From Nitrososphaerota archaeon (lineage in GTDB: Archaea > Thermoproteota > Nitrososphaeria > Nitrososphaerales > Nitrosopumilaceae), in assembly GCA_028866895.1 (NCBI GenBank), contig JAGWHF010000008.1:1-64000 (forward strand): a stretch of 64,000 nucleotides of DNA, written 5' to 3'. Under the pieces are notes generated by a model that had not been told where the DNA came from, did not search any database, and worked only from the letters and a program-made list of their open reading frames with translations. Position numbers and translations under genes: made by a program. Numbering within the stretch: the first letter of the stretch is position 1; each line of letters opens with the position of its first letter. Positions 36,558-43,678 of the stretch are shown here, piece by piece.

Positions 36558-36839
36558 CTAGAGCTCTAGACCGAAAGAGTCTGCCAAACTCTGGAACTGC
36601 GTGTATGTCTCCAAGTATTGCCTTCCCTTTGGGGTTATGACAAATGTGTTCTTGCCGTCGAACTCTATCTTGTTTATAAGGCCTGCTCCGGTAAGATTCT
36701 CGATAAACTTGGACAGTCTTGAATGTGATAGGTTTGCCTTTGTCAGGAGGGCCGTTACATTGATTCCTTTGGCTCCACTCTGTTCCGTCACGGTAAGCAG
36801 ATCGCACACTATCTGCATGCTTGTTCTATAAGATACCAT
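36558..36839 (-). CDS. Small winged-helix transcriptional regulator
   Basis: Protein of 93 residues that is essentially one winged helix-turn-helix: recognition region TKANLSHSRLSKFIENLTGAGLI, wing KNTFVITPKGRQYLETY, and the tail SLADSFGLEL. It is clearly related to the protein at 43412-43678, which shares the S-H-x-R-L-x-K and F-A-D-S-F-G-L endings. An inverted repeat CTTATA/TATAAG at 36848-36870, overlapping its TATA box, may be its own operator. Confidence 0.85.
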   Translation of the reverse strand: MVSYRTSMQIVCDLLTVTEQSGAKGINVTALLTKANLSHSRLSKFIENLTGAGLINKIEFDGKNTFVITPKGRQYLETYTQFQSLADSFGLEL

Positions 36840-37812: not shown

Positions 37813-39567
37813 TCAGAAGAGGTCCTGCACTATTTTTTGAATGACTGTTATCTCGTCTTCTTCCTGCTTTATCTTCTTCTCTATCACTCTTATCATGGAA
37901 TCGAGCCACACGTGATGCGAGAAAAAGTTATGGTATGTGTTTGCCGCGGTCATCTCATCGTCAACAACAGTGTCTTCCAGAAATTTTGTCACAATGGTAT
38001 CTGTCAACTTCAAGATCCTCTGGTTTAGCTTCACGCTCTTGAAGACAGGTTCTAGTTTTGCAATATCCTCCTTGAAATCCCCCCTTGTAAGAAGGATTTT
38101 CTCGTGTAGCACCTTGAAGTAGACTGCGACAAAAAACAGGGTTGCATACCTCTTCGTCTTGTGTCCGCCCTTCTTCCCATAATTCAAGATCTTCTTCGCA
38201 TATTCCTTTACAAGATACGGATACAACAACAGCCTAAAGTCGTCCTTAAGCTTCTCATCAAATACCTCGTCATACTTGCTCCCTCTAGGAAGGAACTGCG
38301 CAGGAGAGCTGTAAGATTCCGTGGGTCTCTGCTCAATCCCTGCCACGAATGCTTGTATTGCGTCTTTGCCCACTATGACCTTCTTGTGATTCTCGGGCAG
38401 ATACTTGTTGTAAATAGGATCGCCAACATATTCAGATTGCTGCGATTTTGTTTTGCTATCGAACGACCCCGCCTGAATCTCATAAAAGTAGCCGCAGTTT
38501 TCCATCTGGGACTTGATGGACTTGTGGAAGTCCATCAGGGAAACCAGGTCCTTTCCCCTAACAGCATTCTGGGAGTTCCTGTACTTTGTAATGTTGTTTT
38601 GATCCATCTCGTCTTCTGCCTTGATGATGGTAACCGTAATGCTTCCCTCCAGATTGTGGGTACGTTTTGCATGATCAAGAACTGAGTTTGAGGTCTGGGC
38701 ACCGTTAACTATCTGTGGTGCATGCAAAACAATCGAGTTCTCCTCCATCTCCTCGAAATCATTTACTACTATTGTTATTCCATTGTTATAGTAGAAGAAT
38801 TTGTCAGGAGATTCCTGCAGTGTCTCACGCAGTCCCTTGTTTACCGTTGTCTTGAACTGCATCCACTGCCTTATGTTTGATTCAAAGACGTAATCGCGGT
38901 TTTTTGTAACAAAATTTGTCAATTCCCGAAGCTTCAGGATGCCAAGGAGGGTATTTCGGTATCTGAGCTTGCTTTCGAGTCTTATTGCAGCCTTCTTGCC
39001 CACTGCCGGCTTTTTTATTCTGTCCCACAGCCTCTGTATTATTGCATCAATGTCAAAGACCTCTATGCCATCATAATTCTCCTCCTCGACCTTTTGGTCT
39101 GTAACATAAACACATTCAATTTTCAGGTTCTTTTCTTGGATTTGGGTAACCAGGTATGCGATCTCGGGGCGCATCTTAGCTATTTCCTTGCCTCCCAAGC
39201 TTTGAACATCATGCCTGAACTTTGCTATGGCTTCCATGGAGTGCGAGCTGCCATATTTTGACTGGAAGAGGTAGATCTTGTCTTCGGAAAAATCCACAGG
39301 CAGGTATGCGTCTATTCCCAGATCGTTTGGGCCGTCCACTATTGCGTCAGTGGCGTCGTCCTCTGTTGCCTCGAAAACCCTTGTCAGCACCCATTGGAGG
39401 AAGTTGTGTCCCTTCTCTACCTCGTTCTGGGAATCCTCTACATGTTCTCTTAGGCTGTCCCTTATATTCTGAGCAAAGCCTTCCAGTGGCTGCCCATTGG
39501 ATGATTGTTGTACAGGGGGCTTTGCCCCAGGTATGTATTCTAGCAAACCGTTCGTCTTTTCAGTCAA
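37813..39567 (-). CDS. AIPR-family (abortive phage infection) protein
   Basis: Protein of 584 residues starting TTG 39567. The middle holds the AIPR signature: IRQWMQFKTTVNKGLRETL, FFYYNNGITIVVNDFEEM and HAPQIVNGAQTSNSV. The N-terminal part has a Mrr/PD-(D/E)xK-like segment (DGPNDLGIDAYLPV then YLFQSKYG, a D...QxK arrangement). AIPR proteins are linked to abortive infection of phages and restriction systems. It starts 58 bases beyond the 3' end of tRNA-Cys, a common site for acquired genes. There are no methylase genes nearby, so this is a stand-alone defence candidate. Confidence 0.85.
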   Translation of the reverse strand: MTEKTNGLLEYIPGAKPPVQQSSNGQPLEGFAQNIRDSLREHVEDSQNEVEKGHNFLQWVLTRVFEATEDDATDAIVDGPNDLGIDAYLPVDFSEDKIYLFQSKYGSSHSMEAIAKFRHDVQSLGGKEIAKMRPEIAYLVTQIQEKNLKIECVYVTDQKVEEENYDGIEVFDIDAIIQRLWDRIKKPAVGKKAAIRLESKLRYRNTLLGILKLRELTNFVTKNRDYVFESNIRQWMQFKTTVNKGLRETLQESPDKFFYYNNGITIVVNDFEEMEENSIVLHAPQIVNGAQTSNSVLDHAKRTHNLEGSITVTIIKAEDEMDQNNITKYRNSQNAVRGKDLVSLMDFHKSIKSQMENCGYFYEIQAGSFDSKTKSQQSEYVGDPIYNKYLPENHKKVIVGKDAIQAFVAGIEQRPTESYSSPAQFLPRGSKYDEVFDEKLKDDFRLLLYPYLVKEYAKKILNYGKKGGHKTKRYATLFFVAVYFKVLHEKILLTRGDFKEDIAKLEPVFKSVKLNQRILKLTDTIVTKFLEDTVVDDEMTAANTYHNFFSHHVWLDSMIRVIEKKIKQEEDEITVIQKIVQDLF

Positions 39568-39624: not shown

Positions 39625-39696
39625 AGGTGAGGAAGGGATTCGAACCCCTATAGATTCGCTCTGCAGGCGAACGCATAGCCGCTCTGCCACCTCACC
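39625..39696 (-). tRNA. tRNA-Cys (GCA anticodon)
   Basis: On the minus strand: acceptor GGTGAGG/CCTCACC, D-arm GCAG...TGC, anticodon stem TTCGC/GCGAA with loop CTGCAGA (GCA), T-arm AGGGG-TTCGAAT-CCCTT, discriminator T73 as expected for cysteine. No intron; CCA not encoded. Confidence 0.94.
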
Positions 39697-39737: not shown

Positions 39738-39959
39738 TTAGAATTTTGAAAATTGTTTTGCTGCCAGCCTTACATCCTCCGCCTTTATTGTTTTCCGACC
39801 TGCATGGGTTGACATCTCAACCGCACTCTTGGCAATGGAAGTTCCAACCTCCTCCAGTATTCTTCTTAATTCATTTGCAGATTCATCGCTTACCCTGTCT
39901 GCTCCTGCTTTTTTGAGGATTCTATACATGACTGAAAGGCCAAATTCGGAAGTTGTCAT
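39738..39959 (-). CDS. Archaeal histone
   Basis: Histone-fold protein of 73 residues: alpha1-L1-alpha2-L2-alpha3 with the ends GADRVSDESANELRRILEEVGTSIAKSAVEMSTHAGRKTIKAEDVRLAAKQF. The RKTIKAEDV loop before alpha3 is the classical L2/alpha3 signature. It packs DNA as dimers and extended multimers. The N-terminus is short with no tail, but it has TTSEFG before the fold. Thaumarchaea are known to carry histones in addition to Alba-type proteins. Confidence 0.95.
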   Translation of the reverse strand: MTTSEFGLSVMYRILKKAGADRVSDESANELRRILEEVGTSIAKSAVEMSTHAGRKTIKAEDVRLAAKQFSKF

Positions 39960-40055
39960 AGTATAACTCCAAACACCTGTGATAAAAGACTTTTAGGGAC
40001 TTTCCAGAAGGCGGGTATCAATTTATAGGTGCATTCGGCCTTACTTTGTAGGACC

Positions 40056-40811
40056 TTGAACTGGTTATACGATGCCCACATTCACTTATCGGACGATGAA
40101 TTCAAACCAGACCTGCCTTTGATACTTTTGACGATGGGGAGGCTGAAAATAAAGGCATGCTGCGTCTCTATGGACTATAGTAGCTCGGGGGCCACGCTTG
40201 CACTTGCGGAAAAAAGCAAGCTTGTCCTACCCTTCCTTGGCATGCATCCGGAAAGAGCTGGCGAGGATCCCGAACCGATTATAAACCTCATAACAAACAA
40301 CTCCACCCGCGTATCGGGCATAGGAGAGATAGGGCTTGACAAGACGTACGTCTCAGACGAGGAAGGGTTCAGAAAACAAGTTAGCGTGTTTGAGAAGATG
40401 CTGTCCCTTGCAGAAAAGATACGCAAGCCAGTATCCGTCCATTCTAGAAGGACTCTGGAGGAGATATTTGCCATCCTGCCTTCCTATAGAATCAACGGTA
40501 TTCTCTTGCACTGGTTTGCAGGATCCAAAAAACAACTACAGAGATCTATGGATATTGGCTGCTATGTCTCCTATGGGCCTGCAATGGTTTATTCCAAAGA
40601 CAAACAAGTCCTCTTTTCTTGCACCATGCCTGAAAGATTGTTACTTGAGACAGACGGACCAGTGAGATTCTCGAAATGTTTTGGCCAGAAAACCGCCCAA
40701 GTAACTTTTCTTCCAAGCGTACTATTTACAGCATCACACATTCTAGGCAAGGGTTATGACGAAACACTTGAGATGCTTGAAAGAAATGCAAATTCCTATC
40801 TGGGAATATAG
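40056..40811 (+). CDS. TatD-family metal-dependent hydrolase
   Basis: TIM-barrel amidohydrolase-like protein of about 251 residues. TatD marks: N-terminal YDAHIHLSDD (metal His pair), GMHPERAGE, GIGEIGLDKTY, PVSVHSRR, HWFAG and LLETDGP near the end. Family members are 3'-5' DNases or related phosphoesterases. The frame is open from GTG 40029, but TTG 40056 follows a TTTATAG element by about 31 bases and directly precedes the NWLYDAHIHL strand, so it is preferred. Confidence 0.9.
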   Translation: MNWLYDAHIHLSDDEFKPDLPLILLTMGRLKIKACCVSMDYSSSGATLALAEKSKLVLPFLGMHPERAGEDPEPIINLITNNSTRVSGIGEIGLDKTYVSDEEGFRKQVSVFEKMLSLAEKIRKPVSVHSRRTLEEIFAILPSYRINGILLHWFAGSKKQLQRSMDIGCYVSYGPAMVYSKDKQVLFSCTMPERLLLETDGPVRFSKCFGQKTAQVTFLPSVLFTASHILGKGYDETLEMLERNANSYLGI

Positions 40812-40812
40812 G

Positions 40813-40820
40813 TATAAAAT
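40813..40820 (+). promoter_or_regulatory. TATA box for eS17
   Basis: TATAAAAT centred 27 bases before GTG 40843; it fixes a leaderless GTG start for eS17 although the frame is open upstream. Confidence 0.65.
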
Positions 40821-40842
40821 ACCCCTTCTGCCCCTTGTTAAT

Positions 40843-41100
40843 GTGAATAGAGTCAGGCGGATTTCCACACAGCTGATGGCAGCTTATAAAGGAAAATTTG
40901 GCGTTGACTTTGAGTTAAACAAGAAGGTAATAGATGAGGTGGCAGTTGTCAGATCAAAGGGACTGAAAAACGAGATTGCGGGTTACATCACCACGCACCT
41001 GAGGCGGGAACTAGAGGAGCAAAAGGAAAGAGAGTCGGTACAAAAAAACGCGGAGGTCTCTGACGAGGCTGAAGCCATGGAAGAGCAGATTGTAAGCTAG
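40843..41100 (+). CDS. rps17e: Ribosomal protein eS17
   Basis: Small-subunit protein of 85 residues from GTG 40843: NRVRRISTQLMAAYKGKFGVDFELNKKVIDEVAVVRSKGLKNEIAGYITTHLRRELEEQ, with the family F-x-x-D-F-x-x-N-K and S-K-x-L-x-N-x-I-A-G-Y blocks. An acidic tail (residues 66-85) follows. It overlaps nothing and is not in a ribosomal operon here. Confidence 0.95.
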   Translation: MNRVRRISTQLMAAYKGKFGVDFELNKKVIDEVAVVRSKGLKNEIAGYITTHLRRELEEQKERESVQKNAEVSDEAEAMEEQIVS

Positions 41101-41161: not shown

Positions 41162-41941
41162 ATGATTACGGTAAAGCTTCTTGGCGGCTCCAAGCGATCC
41201 TTCGGATCAGATAAAATCGAGTTTGACAAAAAATCGCTAATACTATCCGACCTATTATCACTTCTTCAAAACATGGTCCAGGATGGGAGGCCATCCATTG
41301 ATACCGGGAATATCATAATAGCTATAAACGGCGTGGATTCTTCAGTGTTGAACGGAAACAAGACTCTTGTAACGGACGGGGACGTTATTAGCATAATCCC
41401 GGTTGTGCATGGAGGAACCAAACTGAGCATCTCCTTCAGAATCTCAAATTCTAGGGTTGAATTATTTAGGTTGGGGAAGAATCGGGTTTCTCACAGGCGC
41501 CTTCTTGATGACATGCGCGCTAGGTATCCAAGTCTTTTAATTCAAGGGGTCAGGGCCAAGTATGTTCTTAGTTCCAGACATGCCAGGAGAGTGATCGAGG
41601 TTTCCTTGGAGGCCCAACGGGTAGGAACAATGCTTTCTAAAAAAACTGAGACCGACATGCTTATGCGGTTTGCGGCAACGAGGCAGATTAGTGGTGCCAT
41701 AGATAAGGCTGGCATGAGGGAAGGCGAGGATTCAATACTTATCGTCATTGGGAAAAAACCGCTTGTCAATAAACTCTGCTCAGAGATTGGTCATGCCTTG
41801 AAACCTGTCGAGCCATTTCCTAAAAATGACGCCTTCCTGAAAAAGGAGTTTGGCATACGACGAAAAGAACTCGGATGCGTTCTCTCGGCCAACCCAATTG
41901 AGGATCTGCTTGTGGAACGATCCTCCGTGCTAATCAGATGA
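41162..41941 (+). CDS. Ubiquitin-like (MoaD/ThiS-type) domain fused to Cgi121 of the KEOPS complex
   Basis: Protein of 259 residues. Residues 1-85 have the beta-grasp pattern of MoaD/ThiS/Urm1 proteins (MITVKLLGGSKRSF, ILSDLLSLL, IIIAINGVDS, LVTDGDVISIIPVVHGG) ending in Gly84-Gly85, the motif that is adenylated at a free C-terminus in this family. Residues 86-259 match Cgi121 (VELFRLGKNRVSHRRLLDDMRARYPSLL, SSRHARRVIEVSLEAQ, RFAATRQISGAIDKAG). Cgi121 binds Bud32 and tRNA in the KEOPS t6A complex. Sua5, which makes the substrate for KEOPS, is encoded at 42.4-43.0 kb. Whether the fused Ub-like domain is ever processed at Gly85 is unknown. Confidence 0.8.
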   Translation: MITVKLLGGSKRSFGSDKIEFDKKSLILSDLLSLLQNMVQDGRPSIDTGNIIIAINGVDSSVLNGNKTLVTDGDVISIIPVVHGGTKLSISFRISNSRVELFRLGKNRVSHRRLLDDMRARYPSLLIQGVRAKYVLSSRHARRVIEVSLEAQRVGTMLSKKTETDMLMRFAATRQISGAIDKAGMREGEDSILIVIGKKPLVNKLCSEIGHALKPVEPFPKNDAFLKKEFGIRRKELGCVLSANPIEDLLVERSSVLIR

Positions 41942-42451
41942 GTCTCGTTTGACCTTCATGGTGCTTACTATGTCCCCAGACCTTAGTATGGAAACGCCGG
42001 CAATATCGCCCAAAATCTCAATCACAATGTTCCAATCGAATCCCTCCAATGAAACCTTGTTATTTATCGTGTCTGCTACCGCCTCCACAAGATCCTTGGT
42101 CGACAAGTCGGATCCTCTCTTCTCAACGGTAATCCTGTATGTATCCTCAGGTTGTAATAACTCCAGATGTCTGGCCACTGCAGCGATAATCTCCGAAATG
42201 GAGGCTCGGGTAGATTCCTGGACGGGGATAAACCTGTGGCAATACCTGATACTCCATGGCTCGTCAAGTATCTTCGCCCTGATCTTGGCAACTGTGTGGA
42301 AGGCGTCGAGGGATGTGGTTACCATCAGTAGGCCTGAGAACCTGCTATGATCCGCCCTTGCCATGGGATCGCCAAACTCACTGAGGATCTTTGTCATCTC
42401 TCCTGATGCCTCCTCCTCAAGATGCCTGCTGCACGTCACTATCAAATTCAA
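41930..42451 (-). CDS. THUMP-domain protein (Tan1-like)
   Basis: Protein of 173 residues consisting largely of a THUMP domain: IRAKILDEPWSIRYCHRFIPVQESTRASISEIIAAVARHL then TYRITVEKRGSDLSTKDLVEAVADTI and VIEILGDIAGVSILRSGD. In yeast Tan1, the THUMP domain recruits the tRNA acetyltransferase Kre33. Archaeal stand-alone versions may act similarly on tRNA ac4C; that is inference. It overlaps the end of the Sua5 gene by 4 bases and the end of the Cgi121 fusion gene by 12 bases, so all three are tightly packed. Confidence 0.85.
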   Translation of the reverse strand: MNLIVTCSRHLEEEASGEMTKILSEFGDPMARADHSRFSGLLMVTTSLDAFHTVAKIRAKILDEPWSIRYCHRFIPVQESTRASISEIIAAVARHLELLQPEDTYRITVEKRGSDLSTKDLVEAVADTINNKVSLEGFDWNIVIEILGDIAGVSILRSGDIVSTMKVKRDSSD

Positions 42452-43047
42452 ACCAGCGACATTATCTCCTTCTCATCAATCTTCCCCTTGCGCAGGATGC
42501 CAACCTTGCCTCCGGTCACCTCCACGATGGTGGACTCGGCAGGATTTGGTATGTCGCCTCCGTCCAAAAGGACGTCGTATCCCTCCAGCTTTCCTACCAC
42601 ACCGGATGCATTTGTTGCCGGAGGTTGGCCAGAACGGTTTGCGCTTGTCCCAATTAAAAGTCCGCAAATCCTGAGCAGTTGCAGCAGGCAGGGATGATCG
42701 GGTACGCGAACTGCAATCTTTTTGTCCATGCCAAGGGATCTGGAGATTTCTCCTCCCTTTACGGGGAGGACCAATGTCAATGGCCCGGGCCAGAATCTTG
42801 ACGCAATACGCAGTGACAAATCATCAAAAACGGCAATTTTTGCGACTTCCGAAAAAGAGTACCCAAGTACCGGAAGCTGTTTTGACTCCTCTCTTCCCTT
42901 TATTTTGTAAATCTTTCTGACAGCATCCTGATTGAAGGGGTCGCAACCTATCCCGTATACCGTGTCTGTGGGGAAGATGAGGATTCCGCCGTTTTTGATT
43001 GTGGCCGACGCTTTGGAGATTCCTTCATGATCGCAGTGGACAATCAT
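42448..43047 (-). CDS. L-threonylcarbamoyladenylate synthase (Sua5/TsaC)
   Basis: Protein of 199 residues, single YrdC/Sua5 domain: IFPTDTVYGIGCDPFN, KIYKIKGREESKQLPVLG, FWPGPLTLVLP, KIAVRVPDHPCLLQLL, GTSANRSGQPPATNAS and ESTIVEVTG. It makes threonylcarbamoyl-AMP, the donor used by KEOPS for t6A at position 37 of tRNAs. Same-strand overlap with the THUMP gene and proximity to the Cgi121 fusion make a tRNA-modification cluster. Confidence 0.95.
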   Translation of the reverse strand: MIVHCDHEGISKASATIKNGGILIFPTDTVYGIGCDPFNQDAVRKIYKIKGREESKQLPVLGYSFSEVAKIAVFDDLSLRIASRFWPGPLTLVLPVKGGEISRSLGMDKKIAVRVPDHPCLLQLLRICGLLIGTSANRSGQPPATNASGVVGKLEGYDVLLDGGDIPNPAESTIVEVTGGKVGILRKGKIDEKEIMSLV

Positions 43048-43313: not shown

Positions 43314-43415
43314 GTGTCTGAAGACTTTGAAAATGATTTTGAGGATGATTTTGAAGATGAATTTGATGACGACGTGGAGGACGAGTATGATGACAATAGT
43401 GGGGATTCGGACTAG
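43314..43415 (+). CDS. Ultra-acidic microprotein, 33 aa
   Basis: GTG 43314 to TAG 43413-43415. Twenty of 33 residues are Asp or Glu and none is basic. Hydrophobic residues recur at exact four-residue spacing: F5, F9, F13, F17, V21, Y25, giving a one-face aromatic stripe if helical. A TATA box is properly placed 27 bases upstream. Highly acidic small proteins can act as DNA mimics or partners of histones and basic ribosomal proteins; the role here is inference. Its end overlaps the stop of the next minus-strand gene. Confidence 0.65.
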   Translation: MSEDFENDFEDDFEDEFDDDVEDEYDDNSGDSD

Positions 43416-43678
43416 ATTCTTAAACCAAAGGAGTCCGCAAATTCCCTGAAACCCCGGTAAGCTTGGAGGAATTCCCTTCCCCTCTCGCTGATCTTGTATT
43501 TGCATGCCCTCTCTGAGGAAGTCTGCTCCAGCAATCCCTGTTGTACAAGGGTATCGAGTATCTTTGCCAGCCTGCCGTGGGATATGTTTGCCTTTCTGAT
43601 AAGGTAGGTTACACTTGAACCCGACTCATCAGGAGACTCGTCTCTGGTTGTGGTAAGAATGTCGCCTATAATGCTCAT
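43412..43678 (-). CDS. Small winged-helix regulator, paralogue of 36558-36839
   Basis: Protein of 88 residues with one winged helix: TYLIRKANISHGRLAKILDTLVQQGLL, KYKISERGREFLQAYRGF and EFADSFGLRI. Strong match in pattern and tail to the regulator at 36.6 kb. It lies 7 bases downstream of the membrane-protein gene on the same strand, so the two are probably one transcript. Confidence 0.85.
   Translation of the reverse strand: MSIIGDILTTTRDESPDESGSSVTYLIRKANISHGRLAKILDTLVQQGLLEQTSSERACKYKISERGREFLQAYRGFREFADSFGLRI

Follow-up and report, generated by a model that had tools for sequence, protein, structure and literature searches.

Eukaryotic ubiquitin is made as fusions with the ribosomal proteins eS31 (RPS27A) and eL40, so that the modifier is joined N-terminally, via Gly-Gly, to a translation-linked protein. 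Archaeal modifiers with a JAMM-cut C-terminal extension are known from Caldiarchaeum, where CsSAMP precursors are substrates of CsJAMM, and CsRpn11 cuts pro-ubiquitin exactly after Gly-Gly; P. furiosus JAMM1 is reported to cleave several SAMPs (PMC6043591), and HvJAMM1 hydrolyses both isopeptide and linear SAMP linkages (PMC4048286). Sulfolobales Urm1 and Haloferax SAMP2 are beta-grasp proteins made free, with an exposed C-terminal Gly; the Sulfolobales Urm1 ends in His-Gly-Gly and adjoins ribosomal protein S17e (PMC2948915, PMC12625751). Sulfolobales and Desulfurococcales lack Cgi121, the KEOPS subunit, and in Thaumarchaeota a fusion of a ubiquitin-like domain (Ubl) to Cgi121, in an S17e neighbourhood, was described by Makarova and Koonin in 2010, who found it in all thaumarchaea then available and proposed SAMPylation of KEOPS or a coordinated function (PMC2948915). 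Within the literature searched, no paper after 2010 takes up the Ubl-Cgi121 fusion. The fusion itself is already known; its proposed processing, the split relatives, the constraint on the diglycine and the association with JAMM proteases were not found there.

The gene considered here is an ortholog of that thaumarchaeal fusion, with a like S17e neighbour. It lies in a window of 64,000 nucleotides (the whole stretch of DNA that was analysed) from the draft genome of a Nitrososphaerota archaeon of the family Nitrosopumilaceae (2.26 Mb, 99.66% complete). The locus and its neighbours are as follows.

39738-39959, minus strand: archaeal histone, conserved neighbour (Pfam E 5.1e-12; synteny)
40029-40811, plus strand: TatD-like nuclease, conserved neighbour (Pfam E 4.3e-43; synteny)
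40756-41100, plus strand: ribosomal protein S17e, upstream neighbour (Pfam E 2.1e-16; synteny; coordinates of the longest ORF, the true start being probably further in)
41162-41416, plus strand: Urm1/SAMP/ThiS-like ubiquitin-like (beta-grasp) domain, residues 1-85 (profiles, AlphaFold2, Foldseek)
41408-41416, plus strand: His83-Gly84-Gly85, with proposed cleavage after Gly85 (invariance in the family; low pLDDT)
41417-41941, plus strand: Cgi121 domain (KEOPS subunit), residues 86-259 plus stop (NCBIfam NF011465 E 2.8e-31; CCA-contact residues)
41930-42451, minus strand: THUMP-domain protein, convergent neighbour (Pfam E 1.7e-6; synteny)
42448-43047, minus strand: Sua5/TsaC threonylcarbamoyl-AMP synthase (Pfam E 5.5e-53; TIGR00057 E 2.3e-50; synteny)

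The ORF at 41162-41941 (+) is intact and uninterrupted, starts with ATG and encodes 259 amino acids. Pfam ThiS matches residues 17-85 with 28.8 bits (cutoff 22.5; E 1.8e-6) and Pfam CGI-121 matches residues 128-203 with 31.8 bits (cutoff 25); the NCBIfam KEOPS Cgi121 model NF011465 matches the C-terminal part with E 2.8e-31, and the Urm1_like model matches the N-terminal part with E 6.7e-8, at a score under its own cutoff. An AlphaFold2 model built with 66 homologs (mean pLDDT 90.4, pTM 0.67) shows residues 1-80 as a beta-grasp and everything from residue 89 on as a Cgi121 fold, the orientation of the two domains relative to each other being uncertain. Foldseek ranks solved Cgi121 structures first (best E 2.8e-8), followed by structures of SAMP1, Urm1 and MoaD (2l52, E 6.9e-5; 2k9x; 2ax5; 1fm0). 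Profiles, model and structure search thus agree with the sequence-only reading of this DNA, which had proposed a Gly-Gly-ending Ubl fused in front of Cgi121 and had staked the idea on a beta-grasp fold of residues 1-85 and on conservation of the Gly-Gly in homologues; the adjacent THUMP and Sua5 genes that it named are also present.

The C-terminal domain shares its fold and its CCA-contact residues with M. jannaschii MJ0187, P. furiosus PF0523 and human TPRKB, which, unlike the window protein, are single-domain proteins. Gln175, Ile176 and Gly184 are invariant in the family and correspond in the alignment to Gln71, Ile72 and Gly80, which contact the tRNA CCA end in M. jannaschii, so that the Cgi121 domain should still recruit tRNA. 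Since the frame runs on for 174 residues into Cgi121, the primary product has no free C-terminal glycine on its Ubl. Gly85 is directly followed by TK and then LSISFR, and the predicted tryptic peptides are TLVTDGDVISIIPVVHGG (residues 68-85) for an end at Gly85 and TLVTDGDVISIIPVVHGGTK (residues 68-87) for the intact junction.

An artefact of assembly or frame is ruled out: of 150 genomes in the same family, 145 have a match to the fusion, and nearly all matches are full length in a single frame. Conservation was counted in alignment columns for 79 fused proteins of the family. His83-Gly84-Gly85 is invariant in all 79, a figure that excludes contig-search matches because one search pattern itself contained HGG, and it is so at Ubl identities as low as 30%, which bears out the conservation expected of the Gly-Gly. 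The ten residues past Gly85 differ in identity and in number, with indels. The codons are scrambled (GGA26/GGT22/GGC19/GGG12 for Gly84 and GGT28/GGA24/GGC23/GGG4 for Gly85), and the other invariant Ubl positions are N56, G65, D74 and P80. To judge from these patterns, the diglycine is under selection. In the model, pLDDT falls below 50 at residues 83-85 and nowhere else, so folding is no obvious cause of the invariance. Internal re-initiation at a GTG codon (Val82) is ruled out as a general mechanism, position 82 being Ile in 50 of the 79 proteins.

Most of the genomes examined beyond the family, though within its order and class, carry two adjacent genes, a Ubl ending in HGG and a stop, followed by Cgi121. 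The gene order (histone, reverse; TatD, forward; S17e, forward; Ubl-Cgi121, forward; THUMP, reverse; Sua5, reverse) is common to fused and to many split genomes across the class, and this shared neighbourhood supports orthology. Sua5/TsaC catalyses the first step of t6A synthesis. The surroundings also include a gene at 37813-39567 (-) for a protein of the AIPR (abortive infection phage resistance) family (PF10592, E 6.4e-56), near a tRNA-Cys gene at 39625-39696 (-) and possibly a defence element, and two HTH_45 winged-helix regulators at 36558-36839 (-) and 43412-43678 (-).

In about ten split genomes one stop codon is all that separates the Ubl and Cgi121 ORFs, which share a reading frame. 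HGG lies at or near the C-terminal end in all split orthologs examined; eight have 1-9 residues past the Gly-Gly (HGGCL, HGGS, HGGL, HGGQY, HGGMVGV, HGGNNNEL, HGGSPKPA and HGGCLRYDGEVE), tails that would likewise need trimming. The genus Nitrososphaera includes four fused and two split genomes (G227 and G232 among them), and further fusions are found in G219, from another family of the class, and in G050. The Gly-Gly is retained in all four fused Nitrososphaera proteins and in G219. On a tree of 58 Ubl+Cgi121 sequences the fused state has to change six times, and no fewer than four of these changes fall on well-supported branches, which rules out a single ancient fusion. Fusion or fission has recurred, on the evidence of these sequences, every time at the Gly-Gly boundary, the tree being compatible with either direction. 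Relative to the account of Makarova and Koonin, the two domains are thus split in many families, their Gly-Gly is constrained, and processing is proposed.

Two further loci may be mentioned. In G046 an orthologous Ubl that keeps HGG is fused to a phosphoribosyltransferase domain (L038:1276-2133, +; PF00156, E 3.7e-16), with Cgi121 encoded by a gene of its own downstream, so that a third type of partner stands after the same Gly-Gly. In G021 (L031, near 1600) a frameshift directly after HGG gives two overlapping frames, either a draft error or a real re-split.

The complement of related genes has been surveyed in the window genome and in family relatives. Only two Ubl domains are found with the ThiS and archaeal-MoaD profiles, one on Cgi121 and one on an E1, and in the window genome neither has a free Gly-Gly end. 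Searches of that genome with two distinct profiles, one of them run to E 0.5, detected no free Ubl elsewhere, at a completeness of 99.66% at which a short or divergent one could still escape. The one ThiF/MoeB-type E1 retains CSTEGV and the Zn-type cysteines and is fused to the second Ubl (L153:1002-2321, +, on contig 11), with the junction AGG|SELSS..ERYSRQ; we infer that it is cognate to the Ubl of Ubl-Cgi121 as well. Its gene adjoins that of a threonine-synthase-like PLP enzyme (so named from the sequence). In G049 (L162) the second Ubl and the E1 are divided by one in-frame stop directly after the Gly-Gly, and no JAMM was found in that genome.

The window genome also encodes a TtuA/NcsA-like thiolase and two JAMM proteins with complete HxHPx6SxxD active-site motifs, HSHPDSEAYPSPID and HSHPTGVARPSVTD. 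With E1, thiolase and JAMMs present and no free Ubl found, either the Ubl functions have been abandoned or the domains are released; abandonment is disfavoured because the Gly-Gly is invariant. The JAMMs of the tested genomes fall into two clades, the first with P. furiosus JAMM1 as nearest PDB structure (5lda, E 1.8e-14) and the second with AfJAMM (1r5x, E 2.8e-13). The candidate protease is the following.

Window genome (G000), contig 22, 113578-113889: PfJAMM1-like JAMM

Ubls with a buried Gly-Gly, through fusion or a tail, occur in six of nine families with the PfJAMM1-type clade and in none of seven without it (Fisher p 0.010), an exploratory association whose hypothesis was drawn from the same data, whose family counts are not phylogenetically independent and which leaves out two tail-bearing genomes, G041 and G199. 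As statistical proof the association was rejected despite its p value, being post hoc, and a tree-based pair test yielded 1-5 independent pairs and had no power. Three split families (f4, f7 and f17) possess a PfJAMM1-like JAMM and have no buried Gly-Gly; the protease therefore appears to permit rather than to predict fusion. At contig 1, 108141-109280 (-), of G047 some 150 bases separate the PfJAMM1-type JAMM gene and the E1 gene, which links this protease type with Ubl activation in an operon-like manner.

The invariant HGG and the lack of a detected free Ubl suggest that the front domain is cut off and used. The window protein is probably a pro-Urm1 that is cleaved after Gly85 by a JAMM, to yield a sulfur carrier or modifier and a free Cgi121 for KEOPS. 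The sequences show the architecture, the selection on HGG, the gene inventory, the shared neighbourhood and the recurrence; we infer the cleavage, the protease and the fate of the released Ubl as follows. The cut after Gly85 would be made by a JAMM metalloprotease, with the PfJAMM1-like enzyme as the likeliest one, and the freed Urm1/SAMP-type protein would bear a C-terminal Gly-Gly that the single E1 could adenylate and thiocarboxylate. The thiocarboxylated Ubl may then serve tRNA 2-thiolation (with the TtuA/NcsA-like enzyme), lysine conjugation, or both. Cgi121, the second product, would recruit tRNA to KEOPS via the CCA end. The fusion would stand in for a tightly packed gene pair, with the ratio of synthesis fixed at 1:1, like that of ubiquitin to eS31 or eL40 in the eukaryotic fusions. 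Further points against this scheme are that the E1-fused Ubl could cover all needs for a sulfur carrier and that Urm1 proteins are generally said to be synthesised with no pro-peptide (PMC12625751).

Processing might also be partial or regulated, the uncut fusion acting as the principal subunit of KEOPS and the Ubl being freed only under some conditions, which would tie t6A to thiolation or tagging. Such an arrangement accounts for the Gly-Gly constraint together with a stable fusion to a tRNA-modification subunit, it fits the conserved Sua5 and THUMP neighbours, and it would place two tRNA-modification functions on one polypeptide, a kind of linkage suggested by Makarova and Koonin (PMC2948915). 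We nevertheless hold it to be unlikely, as the co-occurrence of fused and split pairs within the genus Nitrososphaera makes the covalent link seem dispensable. That the fusion links KEOPS with a conjugation pathway, one of three readings offered from the sequence alone, is conceivable.

That the fusion is never cut, so that the Ubl stays on Cgi121 for good as a scaffold, chaperone or docking module and HGG is retained for flexibility at a hinge or for binding, is rather improbable. The linker is indeed short and flexible in the AlphaFold2 model, and one fused form without Gly-Gly exists, presumably as a functional scaffold: the G050 protein, with the junction ..LHCSAF, is the only such fusion. 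A hinge would not require an invariant His-Gly-Gly in 79 proteins whose linker changes, and every split relative examined has this motif at, or almost at, its C-terminus. The loss in G050 is moreover the only one, and neither E1 nor JAMM was detected in its draft genome (82% complete); the G050 fusion is a natural negative control for processing. A flexible linker was rejected as proof of cleavage, the G050 junction without Gly-Gly being also poorly ordered (block mean pLDDT 60). Of the three sequence-only readings, protease release after Gly85 is best supported; invariance of the diglycine next to a variable linker speaks against a pure scaffold mimic.

An ordinary operon fusion of no selected role, in which the Ubl is dead weight with an inherited, decaying Gly-Gly and the E1-fused Ubl does the work, would need the loss of just one stop codon, as the in-frame split pairs illustrate, but it is very hard to credit, as the Gly-Gly is not decaying (79 of 79, with synonymous codons scrambled and Ubl identity down to 30%) and N56, G65, D74 and P80 are invariant as well.

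The evidence thus shifts the balance towards a processed precursor. The likeness of the proposed precursor to those of Caldiarchaeum lies in a modifier with a JAMM-cut extension; that extension is short (9 amino acids in CsUb), whereas the one in the window protein is a whole functional protein. It differs from the ubiquitin fusions with eS31 and eL40 in that the partner is a KEOPS subunit and not a ribosomal protein, the origin is independent, and cleavage is here only proposed. It is conceivable, and we put it forward tentatively, that both Ubls of the family are made as N-terminal fusions (to Cgi121 and to E1) and that a PfJAMM1-type protease frees both at Gly-Gly. This would be a strategy like that of the ubiquitin-ribosomal protein fusions, independent and repeated in archaea, coupling Urm1-type chemistry to t6A synthesis.

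The family of the window genome is one of ammonia-oxidising archaea, and the Ubl-Cgi121 fusion occurs in archaea whose numbers are among the highest on Earth. If the Ubl is released, archaea would have invented the precursor trick of eukaryotic ubiquitin, with a JAMM as the cutting enzyme, and one polypeptide could supply two branches of tRNA modification, that of the wobble uridine and that of t6A, in a fixed ratio.
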